From Streptomyces sp. NBC_00239 (GTDB lineage: Bacteria; Actinomycetota; Actinomycetes; Streptomycetales; Streptomycetaceae): DNA of 64,000 nt. The stretch spans positions 7,192,001-7,256,000 of the forward strand of contig NZ_CP108095.1 in assembly GCF_036194065.1 (NCBI RefSeq). Direction: 5' to 3'. The notes below the pieces were generated by a model. That model was not told where the DNA came from. It saw only the letters and a program-made list of their open reading frames with translations, and searched no databases. Each line of letters starts with the position of its first letter. Within the stretch, counting starts at the first letter, position 1. Below are positions 3,560 through 50,476 of this stretch, piece after piece. The position numbers and the translations under genes are program-made.

Positions 3560-3585
3560 GCGCCTCAAACGCCGGCGAGGCTGGG
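3560..3585 (+). repeat. Solitary copy of the dispersed intergenic REP-like repeat
   Basis: Contains CGCCTCAAACGCCGGCGAGG followed by CTGG, the same half-element that forms the right end of the composite repeats at 15906-16018 and 49884-49994. It sits between the convergent ends of the importer ATPase and the HAD phosphatase. Confidence 0.75.
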
Positions 3586-9417: not shown

Positions 9418-9529
9418 CAGCCTCGCCGGCGTTTGAGGCGCGGGGTTTGGGGCGGAGCCCCAAGGCAACCCGGCTGACGCCGGGCACCGGGCTCCGCCCA
9501 GACCCGCTCCTCAAGCGCCGGAGGGGCTG
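9418..9529 (-). repeat. Composite intergenic repeat (REPIN/MITE-like), copy 1, reverse orientation
   Basis: A 112-bp element bounded by CAGCC and GGCTG, with inverted ends built on CCGGCGTTTGAGG at the left and TCAAGCGCCGG at the right. Its interior has two small palindromes, TTGGGGCGGAGCCCCAA and CCGGGCTCCGCC-type. It is nearly identical, in reverse complement, to 15906-16018 and 49884-49994. It lies between the convergent ends of the lactonase and CbiX-like genes. Confidence 0.8.
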
Positions 9530-9660
9530 GAAAGTGCGCGGGGTTGCCGGGCTCCGCCCGGACCTGCGCCTCAAGCGCCGGAGGGGCTGGAAAGTGCGCG
9601 GGGTTGCCGGGCTCCGCCCGGACCCGCTCCTCAAACGCCGGAGGGGCTGGAAGTTGCCCC
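9481..9660. repeat. Three tandem 60-bp repeats derived from the composite element
   Basis: Three consecutive 60-bp units (9481-9540, 9541-9600, 9601-9660) share GGGCTCCGCCC, CTCAAGCGCCGGAGG and GGCTGGAA at the same offsets. The second and third also share GGGGTTGCC and differ at only a few positions before their divergent tails. The whole convergent gap 9268-9804 is occupied by this and related repeat material, and I see no gene in it. Confidence 0.85.
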
Positions 9661-12813: not shown

Positions 12814-14193
12814 GTGGCCACCGAACACCTCTCCCCGCTCGACCTCGCCTTCTGGCGGATCGAGTCCTCAGGGCATCCGATGCACCTCGGTGCACTCGCG
12901 GTGTTCACCGCCGACCGCCCCGGCGCCGCCGCCCGCGCCGCGGCGCAGCTCACCGCCCGCTGTGCCGGCGTTCCCCGGCTGCGCCACCGCATCCAGGACG
13001 TACTCCTGCCGGTCGGCGCCGCCGCCTGGGTGCCCGACCCGGATTTCGACCCGTCCCGGCACGTGTTCCTCGCACCGGGCAACGGCCCCGGCCCGCACGA
13101 GGCCGCCGGGGCGCTGATGGCCCGGCCGCTGGACCGGGAGCGGCCGCCGTGGGCGGCGCACGTGCTCCCGGGGCCCGGCGGGCCGGACGACGGTTCCTTC
13201 GCGGTGCTGTTCAAGTTCCACCACGCCCTGGCCGACGGGCTCGGGGCGCTGGCGCTGGCCGCCGCGCTCTTCGACGGGCCCGCGGACGGCGGGCCGGGCG
13301 CCGGCGGGCCGGGCGGGGCGGTGCCGCGTACCCGGCGCAGGTCCGCGAGCGCCGCCGCGGAACGCGACCGTCCGCTGCTCACCCGGCTGCCGGGCGTGCT
13401 GGCCGCCCGGGTCCAGGACCTCGGCCAGGCCCTGGAGATCGGCGCCGCGGTGGCCCGGGCGGGGCTGCCCTTCGGCGTCCCGGACGGCCTGACCAGCACC
13501 GGCGCCGACCCGGGCCGCCGGGCGGTCGCCGGGGCCACGCTCGGCCTGGAGCAGGTCAACCGGATCCGCCGGGCGGCCGGCGGCACCGTCAACGACGTCC
13601 TGATCACGCTGGTCGCGGGCGGACTGCGGCGCTGGCTGGAGGCGCGCGGCGAGCGGCTGGACGGATCCGGCACCCGGGCCCTGGTCCCCGTCTCGCGCCG
13701 GCGCCGGGCCGGCCGCGCCGCCGACGGCAACCGGCTCTCCGGCTACCTCGTGAGCCTGCCGCTCGCGGAGCCCGACCCGCTGGCCCGGCTGGACGCCGTA
13801 CGCGCCGAGATGGACCGCAACAAGGAGGCCGGGCCGAACCGGGGCGCCGGGGCCGTCGCGCTGCTCGCCGACCACGTCCACCCGCTCGGCCACCGGCTCG
13901 GCGGCCCGCTCGTGGCCCGGGCGGCCCAACTGCTCTTCGACATCCTGGTCACGAGCGTGCCGCTGCCCGGGCTCGCCTTCACCCTGGCGGGCAGCGCGCT
14001 GCGCGAGGTGTACCCGCTGGCGCCGCTGGCCTGCGGCCAGTCCCTCGCGGTCGCCGTCTCCACCTACCGGGACGCCGTGCACTTCGGCCTGGTCGCCGAC
14101 GCCGCCTCGGTCCCGGACCTCGCCGACCTGGCGTCCGCCCTGCACGCGGAACTCGACGCCCTGCTGGCCGCGGCCACGGAGCCGGCGCGGTAG
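12814..14193 (+). CDS. Wax ester synthase/diacylglycerol acyltransferase (WS/DGAT)
   Basis: 459-residue acyltransferase that transfers acyl-CoA to diacylglycerol or a fatty alcohol, making triacylglycerol or wax esters at the membrane face. The active-site motif HHxxxDG is HHALADG (136-142) in the context FKFHHALADG. The supporting PPWAAHV block (about 111-117) and the C-terminal-half NDVLIT and TSVPLPG segments are in the expected order. The N-terminus EHLSPLDLAFWRIES is typical. The GTG at 12814 has only a nearby GGAG, so the leader may be very short. It is divergent from the BNR propeller across a relatively AT-rich 200-bp gap. Confidence 0.93.
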   Translation: MATEHLSPLDLAFWRIESSGHPMHLGALAVFTADRPGAAARAAAQLTARCAGVPRLRHRIQDVLLPVGAAAWVPDPDFDPSRHVFLAPGNGPGPHEAAGALMARPLDRERPPWAAHVLPGPGGPDDGSFAVLFKFHHALADGLGALALAAALFDGPADGGPGAGGPGGAVPRTRRRSASAAAERDRPLLTRLPGVLAARVQDLGQALEIGAAVARAGLPFGVPDGLTSTGADPGRRAVAGATLGLEQVNRIRRAAGGTVNDVLITLVAGGLRRWLEARGERLDGSGTRALVPVSRRRRAGRAADGNRLSGYLVSLPLAEPDPLARLDAVRAEMDRNKEAGPNRGAGAVALLADHVHPLGHRLGGPLVARAAQLLFDILVTSVPLPGLAFTLAGSALREVYPLAPLACGQSLAVAVSTYRDAVHFGLVADAASVPDLADLASALHAELDALLAAATEPAR

Positions 14194-15905: not shown

Positions 15906-16018
15906 CAGCCCCTCCGGCGTTTGAGGAGCGGGTTCGGGCGGAGCCCGGTGCTCGGCGCCAGCCGGGTTGGTCTTGGGGCTCCGCCCCAAACCCCGCGCCT
16001 CAAACGCCGGCGAGGCTG
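15906..16018 (+). repeat. Composite intergenic repeat (REPIN/MITE-like), copy 2
   Basis: 113-bp copy starting CAGCCCCTCCGGCGTTTGAG and ending GCCGGCGAGGCTG, so the two ends are inverted copies of one another. The centre carries GGGCGGAGCCC and TTGGGGCTCCGCCCCAA palindromes. Nearly identical to 49884-49994 and to the reverse complement of 9418-9529. A further half-copy (CTCAAGCGCCGG) follows at about 16038-16049 and again near 16094. It fills most of the convergent gap 15818-16134, which has no gene. Confidence 0.8.
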
Positions 16019-16134
16019 CAATTGCTCGAGGTCCGCCTCAAGCGCCGGCCCGGCGGGAGGCGCCGCCCGGGCGCCGGCGGCGCTGAGGTTCGCTCAAGCG
16101 CCGGCCGGGCCGGTGGTGCCCCGGGGGGAGGGCG

Positions 16135-31959: not shown

Positions 31960-33174
31960 ATGCGTTACGGACTCCCCGCCGGGGTCGCGGCCCTCGCCCT
32001 CGGCCTGGCCGCAGCCCTGACCCTCACCCCCGCCGCGCACGCCGGACCGACGGGAGCGGCCGGGCCCGCCGCGGCGGCCGCCCCCGCCGCCTTCGCCCAC
32101 CCCGGCGTGCTGAACAGCCGGGCGCAGCTGGACTTCGTACGGACCCAGGTGCAGGCGGGCCGGCAGCCGTGGAAGTCGGCGTTCGACCAGATGCTCGGCA
32201 GCAAGTACGGCTCGCTCGCGCGCACGCCCAGGCCGCGCGCGATCGTGGAGTGCGGCTCCTACTCCAACCCGAACAACGGCTGTACGGAGGAGCGCGAGGA
32301 CGCCATCGCCGCGTACAGCCACGGGCTCGCCTGGTACGTCACCCGGGACGCGCGCCACGCGCGGAAGGCGATCGAACTGATGGACGCCTGGTCCGCCACG
32401 ATCAAGGACCACACCAACAGCAACGCGCCGCTCCAGAGCGGCTGGTCGGGTTCGAGCTGGGCACGCGCCGCGGAACTCGTCAAGCACACGTACACCGGCG
32501 GCTGGCCGAACCAGGGGCGCTTCGCCACCATGCTGCGGAACGTCTACCTGCCCGAGGTGGTGGACGGCCGGCCGAGCAGCAACGGCAACTGGGAACTCAT
32601 CATGACGGACGCCGCGATCGGCATCGCCGTCCACCTCGACGACAAGGCCGCCTACGACAAGGCCATGGCGATCTACCTCGGCCGGGTCCCCGCGTACTTC
32701 TACCTGAAGACCGACGGCGCGCAGCCCGCGTACCCGCCGCGCTCGCACATCGACACGCCCGCCGAGCTCGTCGACTACTGGCACGGCCAGAGCACCTTCG
32801 TCGACGGCCTCGCCCAGGAGACCTGCCGGGACTTCGGGCACACCGGCATGGGCATCGCGGCGGCCATGCACGTCGCCGAGACCTCACGCATCCAAGGACG
32901 CGACCTCTACCCGCAGTTCAAGGACCGCTTCCGGCACGCGCTCGGCTTCCACGCCCGCTACGAACTCGGCGAGGCCGTGCCGTCCTGGCTGTGCCGCGGG
33001 AGCGTGACCAAGGGCCTCGGCCCGGCCACCGAGGTCGGGTACAACGCCCTGCACACGCGGCTCGGCGTCACCATGGAGAAGACCCGCACCCTCACCGAGG
33101 GCCGCCGCCCGGCCGGCACCGACAACCACTTCGAGGCGTGGGAGACCCTCACGCACGCCGACAACCCGAACTGA
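31960..33174 (+). CDS. Secreted alginate lyase-family protein
   Basis: 404-residue exported enzyme. A signal peptide with cleavage after AHA (residue 28) precedes an (alpha/alpha)-barrel of the alginate lyase family (PF05426-like). Conserved segments include SSNGNWELIMTDAAIGIAV and FVDGLAQETCRDFGHTGMG, whose Asn, His and Arg are candidates for uronate neutralisation and catalysis. The natural substrate may be alginate or another polyuronate. ATG at 31960 follows AGGAAGG. The promoter carries a LacI-type operator, so induction by a breakdown sugar is likely. The 3' end is tandemly duplicated past the stop. Confidence 0.88.
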   Translation: MRYGLPAGVAALALGLAAALTLTPAAHAGPTGAAGPAAAAAPAAFAHPGVLNSRAQLDFVRTQVQAGRQPWKSAFDQMLGSKYGSLARTPRPRAIVECGSYSNPNNGCTEEREDAIAAYSHGLAWYVTRDARHARKAIELMDAWSATIKDHTNSNAPLQSGWSGSSWARAAELVKHTYTGGWPNQGRFATMLRNVYLPEVVDGRPSSNGNWELIMTDAAIGIAVHLDDKAAYDKAMAIYLGRVPAYFYLKTDGAQPAYPPRSHIDTPAELVDYWHGQSTFVDGLAQETCRDFGHTGMGIAAAMHVAETSRIQGRDLYPQFKDRFRHALGFHARYELGEAVPSWLCRGSVTKGLGPATEVGYNALHTRLGVTMEKTRTLTEGRRPAGTDNHFEAWETLTHADNPN

Positions 33175-47187: not shown

Positions 47188-48132
47188 ATGGGCCGCGCAG
47201 CGAAGTGCCTTGCCGCCGTCGCGCTCACCGCACTGCTGGCCGCCCCGGCGCCCTCGGTGGCGACCGCCGAACCGGCACCCTCGCCCGCCCGCACCGCGGC
47301 CCCGAGCCCGGCCCCGACCCCGTCGCACGCCTCGGTCCGCGGACTGGAGATAGCCGTACCCGCGTACGGGCACGCGGACGACCCCATGCTGGCCGCGCTC
47401 ACGGGAACGGGCCCCGCGGCTTCCGTGGTGGTCCTCAACCCGGGCAACGGGGACGCCCCGTTCGACGCCGGCTGGCAGGCCCGCGCCGACGCGCTGCGTC
47501 GCGGTGTCACCGCCACCGGCGAACACACCAAGGTCCTCGGCTACGTCCACACCGACCACGGCCAGCGCGACCGGGCCGCCGTCGAGGCGTCCATCGACAA
47601 CTACCTGCGGACCGCCGACGGCCGGCTGCACGTCGACGGCATCTTCTTCGACGTGGTCAGCCGGGACTGCGGTCCGGGGGACCGGACCCGCGACCACTAC
47701 CTCGCGCTCCGCCGCCACGTCCAGGACGTCATGCACGACGTGGACCCGGCCGTCCCGGACCTGGTCGTCGACAACCCGGGCACCGCCATCGCCGACTGCT
47801 ACCTGGCGCCGGGCCGCCGCACAGCCGACGTCTTCGTCACGTACGAGGACACGTACGCCGCCTACACGGGCGGCGGCTGGTCCGGCGGCAACGTCTTCAA
47901 CGCCACCGAGGGCTACCACTCGGGTGCCGCGCTCGACCCGAGCGGCACCGCCTTCTGGCACCTCGTCCACGGCGTCCCCGACCAGGCCGCCATGCGCGCC
48001 ACCCTGCGGACGGCCTTCGGCCGCGGCGCCGGATACGCGTACGCCGCCTCGGCCGGCATGCCCAACCCGTGGGACACCACGCCCGTTTGGGGCTTCGGCC
48101 CGATGACGGGCTACGCGGCCACGCTCGGCTGA
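47188..48132 (+). CDS. Secreted spherulation-specific family 4 protein
   Basis: 314-residue exported protein. A signal peptide (cleavage near ATA/EPA, about residue 27) and a Pro/Ala-rich linker to about 50 precede a TIM-barrel domain of the spherulation-specific family 4 type: GLEIAVPAYG, VVVLNPGNGD, KVLGYVHTDHG, VDGIFFDVVSRD, DLVVDNPG, DVFVTYEDTYAAY. This domain is related to GH114-type endo-alpha-galactosaminidases; the Asp/Glu residues DGIFFD and YED are candidates for catalysis. A cell-wall or exopolysaccharide glycosidase role is inferred. ATG at 47188. Confidence 0.88.
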   Translation: MGRAAKCLAAVALTALLAAPAPSVATAEPAPSPARTAAPSPAPTPSHASVRGLEIAVPAYGHADDPMLAALTGTGPAASVVVLNPGNGDAPFDAGWQARADALRRGVTATGEHTKVLGYVHTDHGQRDRAAVEASIDNYLRTADGRLHVDGIFFDVVSRDCGPGDRTRDHYLALRRHVQDVMHDVDPAVPDLVVDNPGTAIADCYLAPGRRTADVFVTYEDTYAAYTGGGWSGGNVFNATEGYHSGAALDPSGTAFWHLVHGVPDQAAMRATLRTAFGRGAGYAYAASAGMPNPWDTTPVWGFGPMTGYAATLG

Positions 48133-49769: not shown

Positions 49770-49883
49770 GATCCGGGAGTCTGCCAGGGGCGGGCGGTGC
49801 GCCCGCAGGGTGCCTGGGCGGCTGCCGCCTGGCCGGGCGACGGGGAGCGGGTCCGGGCGGAGCCCGGCAACCCTGCGCATCTT

Positions 49884-49994
49884 CAGCCCCTCCGGCGCTT
49901 GAGGAGCGGGTCCGGGCGGAGCCCGGTGCCCGGCGCCAGCCGGGTTGCTTGGGGCTCCGCCCCAAACCCCGCGCCTCAAACGCCGGCGAGGCTG
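49884..49994 (+). repeat. Composite intergenic repeat (REPIN/MITE-like), copy 3
   Basis: 111-bp copy with the same inverted ends (CAGCCCCTCCGGCGCTTGAG at the left, GCCGGCGAGGCTG at the right) and the central GGGCGGAGCCC and TTGGGGCTCCGCCCCAA palindromes. It lies in the divergent gap 49770-50476, 115 bp before the MDMPI gene start; the copies at 9.4 and 15.9 kb are in convergent gaps. Confidence 0.8.
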
Positions 49995-50039
49995 GGATCT
50001 GCCCGCCTGGGCACCGGCGAGGCTGGGGTGGGCCCTGCC

Positions 50040-50290
50040 CGGGCCCGCGCCTCAAACGCCGGCGAGGCTGGATGTTGCCGGCCGGGCGGGGTTCGCCGCC
50101 GGGCGCGAGCGAGGCTGGGACTTGCCCCCAGGGCACCGGCGAATCCGGAGCGGGCTCCGCCCCAACCCCGCGCCTCAAACGCCCGCGAGGCTGGATGTTG
50201 CCGGCCGGGCGGGGTTCGCCGCCGGGCACTGGCGAGGCTGGGATTTGCCCGCCTGGGCGCCGGCGAGGTTGGAAGTCGCACCCCGCAGTG
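50040..50290 (+). repeat. Array of solitary half-copies of the intergenic repeat
   Basis: CGCCTCAAACGCC followed by CGAGGCTGGATGTTGCC occurs at about 50049 and again at about 50171, with degenerate GGCGAGGCTGGG copies at about 50017, 50112, 50232 and 50262. The blocks ATGTTGCCGGCCGGGCGGGG at 50072 and 50194 are identical, showing segmental duplication of roughly 122 bp. No gene is seen here. Confidence 0.75.
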
Positions 50291-50476
50291 CCGTCAAGGC
50301 TGGAGGTGTGGTTGCGTCGCGGGTGACCCTGACGGACGTCGGGGCGGCCGCGCCCCGGACCAGTACACCCCGTACGACCCCTACGGCATCGGCCTGATCG
50401 ACTTTGTGGCGCCCCGGCCAGCCCCGCGGTGGGCGCGGATGCGGAGCCGGATCGAGATCGTGCGAGGATCGGCTCC

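Follow-up and report, generated by a model that had tools for sequence, protein, structure and literature searches.

The stretch of DNA examined here (the window: 64,000 nucleotides of Streptomyces sp. NBC_00239, positions 7,192,001 to 7,256,000 of contig NZ_CP108095.1) carries three near-identical copies of a short intergenic element, and the question that they raise is what kind of repeat this is and by what means it has come to occupy its sites. The original prediction had located the copies and their CAGCC...GGCTG bounds correctly: they are 112, 113 and 111 bp long, they show pairwise identities of 93.8, 97.3 and 95.6%, and the first is in reverse orientation with respect to the other two. 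Its description of two central palindromes holds for the presence of structure in the spacer, but not for the number, as three hairpins can be read from the sequence between the arms. Each copy belongs to a larger cluster of units and sits within a mosaic array; the parts are located as follows.

3564-3583, plus strand: solitary half-unit, with convergent genes on either side
9418-9529, minus strand: dimer copy 1, 112 bp
9530-9649, plus strand: tandem pair of 60-bp units, adjoining copy 1 on its hairpin-1 side, with half-units at 9570-9589 and 9630-9649
15906-16018, plus strand: focal dimer (REPIN-like core), 113 bp
15906-15932, minus strand: left half-unit arm, A type, with its local stem CTCC/GGAG on the minus strand
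15936-15946, plus strand: spacer hairpin 1, GGGC-GGA-GCCC, partly read from the sequence
15951-15966, plus strand: spacer hairpin 2, CTCGGC..GCCGGG
15973-15989, plus strand: spacer hairpin 3, TTGGGGC-TCC-GCCCCAA, which forms with the half folded alone
15992-16018, plus strand: right half-unit arm, B type, with stem CGCC (15996-15999) / GGCG (16009-16012) and loop TCAAACGCC
16037-16056, plus strand: degenerate half-unit, 2 mismatches, past the focal dimer
16093-16112, plus strand: degenerate half-unit, 2 mismatches, past the focal dimer
49884-49994, plus strand: dimer copy 3, 111 bp, flanked by divergently transcribed genes
50051-50070, plus strand: single half-unit past copy 3
50174-50193, plus strand: single half-unit past copy 3, 1 mismatch

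With up to 3 mismatches allowed, the half-unit pattern CTCAARCGCCGGNGNGGCTG turns up 13 times in the window; the expectation from 100 dinucleotide shuffles is 0.69, and no shuffle gives as many as 13. The inner word GGGCGGAGCCC by itself, at up to 1 mismatch, barely exceeds chance (22 matches against 14.8 expected, with three shuffles as high). The focal 113-mer folds as RNA at -85.7 kcal/mol, compared with -56.3 kcal/mol for shuffles (z -8.3), and the whole dimer folded as DNA gives z -6.4; the half-unit folded alone (z -0.5) and the tandem units after 9529 (z -0.25) fold no better than shuffles. A search with the Rfam covariance models gave no relevant match to the repeat at gathering score. 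Elsewhere in the window, a cobalamin riboswitch at 429-507 scores above the Rfam gathering score.

Far from being limited to a single-digit number of copies, the repeat recurs throughout the 9.3-Mb genome: when up to 2 mismatches are allowed, 812 half-units are counted, and a reversed-pattern control gives 10. In a BLAST search of the genome with the 113-mer, all 40 matches that were scored, among 368 candidates, are full-length (one of them from base 2) and at least 95% identical; three dimers are located on a separate 304-kb contig, C3. No replication-strand bias was seen by eye among the listed BLAST places, relative to a guessed origin.

The anatomy of the element has been compared in a sample of 864 kb, consisting of four 200-kb stretches of the genome and the window, which contains 57 clusters and 43 core dimers of 110-115 bp. 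The architecture proposed at the outset, two inverted half-elements around a spacer, recurs throughout: all 43 dimers consist of inverted half-units that are 90-95 bp apart, with no other offset in a search from 75 to 110 bp. By eye, the parts of the 43 listed dimers follow the same order, i.e. half-unit, hairpin 1, hairpin 2, hairpin 3 and inverted half-unit, and the element therefore has a direction. This direction is also visible around the dimers: the 60-bp tandem units occur on the hairpin-1 side of 14 dimers and on the opposite side of none of the 43 (the script that assigned sides misoriented one array-free dimer, at 4698821), while a further unit of ~31 bp, with 135 matches against 8 in one mononucleotide shuffle and with 121 of the 135 near dimers, is found on the hairpin-3 side in 33/43 dimers and on the hairpin-1 side in 13/43. 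At up to 2 mismatches, the units of 55/57 clusters either face away from a single central pair or share one direction; the two clusters that break this rule start at 4571722 and 6116447. This regularity distinguishes the element from BIMEs (PMC2817692), which likewise combine REP-like units of differing orientation into mosaics. We asked whether the outer arms form another inverted repeat within the element and rejected the idea, as left-versus-right identity is 0.372 within elements and 0.426 between them. A separate arrangement, at G000:C1:6199913-6200232, consists of eleven half-units head-to-tail with an exact 30 bp period, between convergent genes.

Each half-unit is a hairpin of its own, NNCC-TCAARCGCC-GGNN, whose stem varies in a compensated manner (CGCC/GGCG, CTCC/GGAG, GTCC/GGAC, GCCC/GGGC). 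Among 223 half-units from the focal genome and other Streptomyces, the stem is fully paired around the loop TCAARCGCC in 201, in the forms CGCC/GGCG (104), CTCC/GGAG (72), GTCC/GGAC (19), TGCC/GGCG (3), GCCC/GGGC (2) and GTCC/GGGC (1). In an alignment of 75 sequences, changes on both sides occur in 46 pair cells, compared with 14.8 in shuffles, and none of 500 shuffles reaches either the covariation score of the local stem or its share of paired cells; as sequences from one genome are not independent, these shuffle counts are not probabilities. Two other measures from the same alignment are not outstanding, namely the pairs that vary on both sides (3, compared with 2.9 in shuffles) and the further pair types (9, compared with 7.5, with 52/500 shuffles as high), and the pair directly outside the four stem pairs is unpaired in 53 of the 75 sequences. 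Since the two halves carry different stem forms in at least 26 of the 43 dimers, the compensation is local to each half.

This last observation bears on the reading of the element as a MITE of a DDE transposon, with the CAGCC...GGCTG arms as its terminal inverted repeats. Imperfect inverted ends, small size and many copies are what such an element would display; terminal repeats, however, do not need a stem that is compensated within each half, and in the sampled species half-units are also found singly and as tandem units. In addition, the flanks of 18 isolated dimers, inspected by eye around ends whose true position is uncertain, display no obvious duplication. We regard this reading as highly improbable.

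The half-unit is widespread in the genus: at up to 1 mismatch it is present in 223 of 295 Streptomyces genomes and in none of the other 72, with counts from 0 to 733 per genome, the focal genome being the highest. A covariance-model survey of the order, with strict filters and 22 candidates scored per genome, has matches in 156/245 genomes, all within one of eight genera. The dimer is more restricted. With three candidates scored per genome, full-length matches of 82-92% were found in nine other genomes (G188, G227, G269, G173, G199, G257, G039, G167 and G042), along with a weak full-length match of 75% in G168; the half-unit pattern confirms the inverted pair in eight of the nine, the exception being G167. 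Each of these nine genomes also ranks in the top 29 by match to the focal region, which makes them close relatives; we take G188 to be S. bambusae T110. There is no match to the repeat in 50,697 phage records, while among 72,556 plasmid records five, from Streptomyces, match, each covering 39-52% of the query. No paper on the repeat was found in the open-access literature, which was the scope of the search (subscription papers and preprints lie outside it), and the six of its words that were looked up occur in five papers, which seem to deal with other topics. The locus L055:5826-5948, which the half-unit pattern misses, has several matches of ~74-91% in relatives, partly in tandem, and is perhaps a second repeat family.

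Comparison with these relatives reveals that the occupied sites differ between species rather than being conserved. At the focal site, where the flanking genes are 317 bp apart, no unit is present in the locus retrieved from any of the 29 relatives; the same neighbouring gene is located within 200 bp in 21 of them and farther away in 3, and it was not seen in 5, in one of which (G332) the locus ends just past the gene. Likewise, none of 80 named loci has a unit within 600 bp downstream of the focal ortholog (3 of these loci being shortened by a contig end), and a relative of the neighbour occurs within 700 bp of this ortholog in 45 of the 80. In S. bambusae, the sites at 9418 and 15906 are both short and unit-free, the comparison for the former being drawn from S. 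bambusae and G278, while the site at 49884 has 830 bp of other, gene-like sequence instead of the repeats (window 49788-50427).

On a larger scale, we have compared the syntenic gaps covered by the S. bambusae contigs C85, C96 and part of C106, 24 of which contain units in the focal genome or in S. bambusae. A dimer in the focal genome faces a unit-free gap in 7 cases, in 6 of which the S. bambusae gap is the shorter one; units occur only in S. bambusae in 8 (one of them a dimer), and a single unit occurs only in the focal genome in 2. Both species have units in the remaining 7 gaps, as a dimer in the focal genome and singles in S. bambusae (5) or as singles in both (2); the script had sorted these as 4 and 3, and the gap at 4597690 was re-read by hand as a dimer in the focal genome, the left half of which falls within the adjacent aligned block. 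The units that are found in both species indicate that part of the population is inherited, and it may be remodelled in place. The dimers in these gaps number 12 in the focal genome, whose compared stretches contain 21 in all (the others have no comparable gap), and one in S. bambusae; none is common to both, which suggests that the dimers are young when set against the ~15% by which the genes have diverged. The spread that the original prediction had deduced from near-identity is thus supported as a spread that differs between related species, with empty sites compared in the relatives; transposition would be its cause. No target-site duplication could be made out against the nearest relative found, which is only ~85% identical, and neither an excision product nor an exact empty-site boundary was observed.

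Two further observations concern S. bambusae. The called genes at 12814-14193, 32107-33174 and 47188-48132, the last of which encodes a Spherulin4-like protein, fall in stretches that the colinear contig lacks. In addition, repeat matches are located at the starts of contigs C85, C116, C123, C125, C126, C129, C135, C154 and C155 of G188, as if the repeats break short-read assembly.

The position of the repeats relative to genes introduces a different reading, in which they are selected gene-end hairpins, i.e. terminators or 3' mRNA stabilisers, whose multiplication and homogenisation would be due to recombination and gene conversion instead of transposition. Genes were called with a simple script based on codon-position G+C (9 of the 10 window proteins tested had Pfam matches). 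At 70 loci of 35 other Streptomyces genomes, clusters are located between convergent genes in 28 cases, between genes of the same direction in 38 and between divergent genes in none; the absence of divergent gaps from these 66 intergenic clusters compares with 40/181 in background gaps (binomial p 1e-7), with the reservation that some of these sites may be orthologous and are thus not all independent. Moreover, 28 of the 38 same-direction clusters are nearer to the upstream 3' end, the six bases past GGCTG are AT-rich in these genomes (0.45-0.85, compared with 0.10-0.21 in the next bases), and the compensation of the stems is also what a selected hairpin would retain. Convergent gaps are enriched in the focal genome as well (20 convergent, 24 same-direction and 12 divergent clusters against 115, 280 and 151 background gaps; odds 2.3, p 0.0085), the clusters per base (20 in 20 kb, 24 in 73 kb and 12 in 62 kb, respectively) being about five times as frequent in convergent as in divergent gaps.

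The resemblance extends to the intrinsic terminators of Streptomyces, which (PMC8269248, PMC12207403) share a GC-rich hairpin, a weak T-rich tail and a location at the gene 3' end; the element differs from them in being one dispersed sequence family without orientation preference. Despite its one-sided AT tail, the one-direction clusters of the 35 other genomes are oriented with transcription in 12 cases and against it in 17, which argues against a strand-specific terminator. Furthermore, 12/56 clusters of the focal genome, including the copy at 49884, lie between divergent genes, compared with 0/66 in the other genomes (p 4e-5), and gene conversion alone makes no new site where the S. bambusae gap is 16 bp. 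The ordinary units, then, are located at gene ends, and the repeats of the focal genome have also entered divergent regions. The reading as selected gene-end hairpins seems unlikely to us; given the lack of divergent clusters in the other genomes, it stays a live rival.

If the repeats are moved, one candidate named by the original prediction was a RAYT-like transposase; RAYTs have been proposed to move REPINs (PMC3116915). This candidate is not supported: PF01797 (Y1 transposase) has no match in the focal genome, which has the highest copy number of the 295, and the RAYT model NF047646 matches none of the 10 dimer-bearing genomes, while control genomes, including E. coli, do match. These zero hits are in line with a survey whose Actinobacteridae carry only the IS200-type subclass and no RAYT-type enzyme (PMC6006769). 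PF01797 is present in 98 of the 295 Streptomyces genomes, and half-unit copies are somewhat more numerous in the genomes that have it (median 14, compared with 4 in the negative ones, p 3.6e-4), a difference that would accommodate an IS200-type helper in some species; this link is weak, as of the 21 genomes in which 100 or more copies occur, 9 carry Y1_Tnp and 12 do not, and 7 of the 10 dimer-bearing genomes are without any. We have also considered a repeat-flanked gene as the mobiliser and rejected it, since no transposase was recognised by eye among 21 predicted proteins from six tight cluster intervals.

An ordinary REPIN, whose RAYT or IS200-type Y1 transposase has been lost or resides on an unsequenced replicon, would account for the architecture, which matches that of REPINs, and for the copy numbers of the Y1_Tnp-positive genomes; against the results of these searches, and with the tag sequence described below absent as well, we hold it to be improbable.

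The REPINs of Pseudomonas and E. coli (PMC3116915) are like the element in several respects: a pair of REP-like hairpins lies in inverted orientation about a spacer, the copies are intergenic, number in the hundreds and form tandem clusters, and the doublets are better conserved than other units. Here, 79/86 units in dimers are free of mismatches, compared with 55/90 elsewhere (Fisher p 1.2e-6), although a dimer call needs two detected halves and may slightly favour clean units. Presence/absence variation between related genomes, another REPIN property, is found as well. The differences are the lack of any RAYT hit in the 10 dimer-bearing genomes, the asymmetric spacer with three hairpins and the one-sided 60-bp arrays. 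REPs have been defined by GTAG or GTGG located 0-2 nt 5' of the stem (PMC6006769), a tag that none of the three window copies has on either strand. The CGTC-tagged REP families (PMC3733652) resemble the element in forming dimers without an associated transposase gene and in being located mostly between convergent or same-direction genes; their stems are 8-9 bp long, the first two pairs being AT, and their loops have 4-5 nt, while the GC-rich stem of the element measures 4-7 bp and carries a loop of 9 nt, outside the CGTC definition. We therefore describe the element as a RAYT-less, REPIN-like repeat, resembling REP/REPIN in architecture and behaviour, and have not filed it as a REPIN because neither the RAYT link nor the GTAG/GTGG tag was found. 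We see it as a novel form within the REP/REPIN kind.

The explanation that we favour, and consider probable, is a non-autonomous, REPIN-like dispersed repeat that is moved in trans by machinery other than RAYT and grows by tandem addition. Its basic unit would be the small REP-like hairpin that occurs widely in the genus; within the focal lineage, two such hairpins, heading outward from a structured spacer, would make the dimer of 110-115 bp, which would come to occupy fresh intergenic sites and disappear from earlier ones. After its arrival at a site, the dimer would grow by 60-bp units at one end only and by ~31-bp units mainly at the other, presumably through slippage or unequal recombination. 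More tentatively, we suggest that there may be a genus-wide REP/REPIN-like population of RAYT-independent origin, in which non-Y1 machinery would act on the TCAARCGCC-loop hairpin and one-ended array growth would be its signature.

A repeat with hundreds of REPIN-like copies, at sites that differ between species and with no RAYT hit, makes spread by means other than RAYT testable. For the main antibiotic-producing genus, it adds a dispersed hairpin whose loop is fixed, whose stems are compensated and which is located at gene ends, where its units may affect the ends of transcripts; they may also break short-read assemblies, as the matches at the ends of several S. bambusae contigs suggest, and could serve as strain markers.
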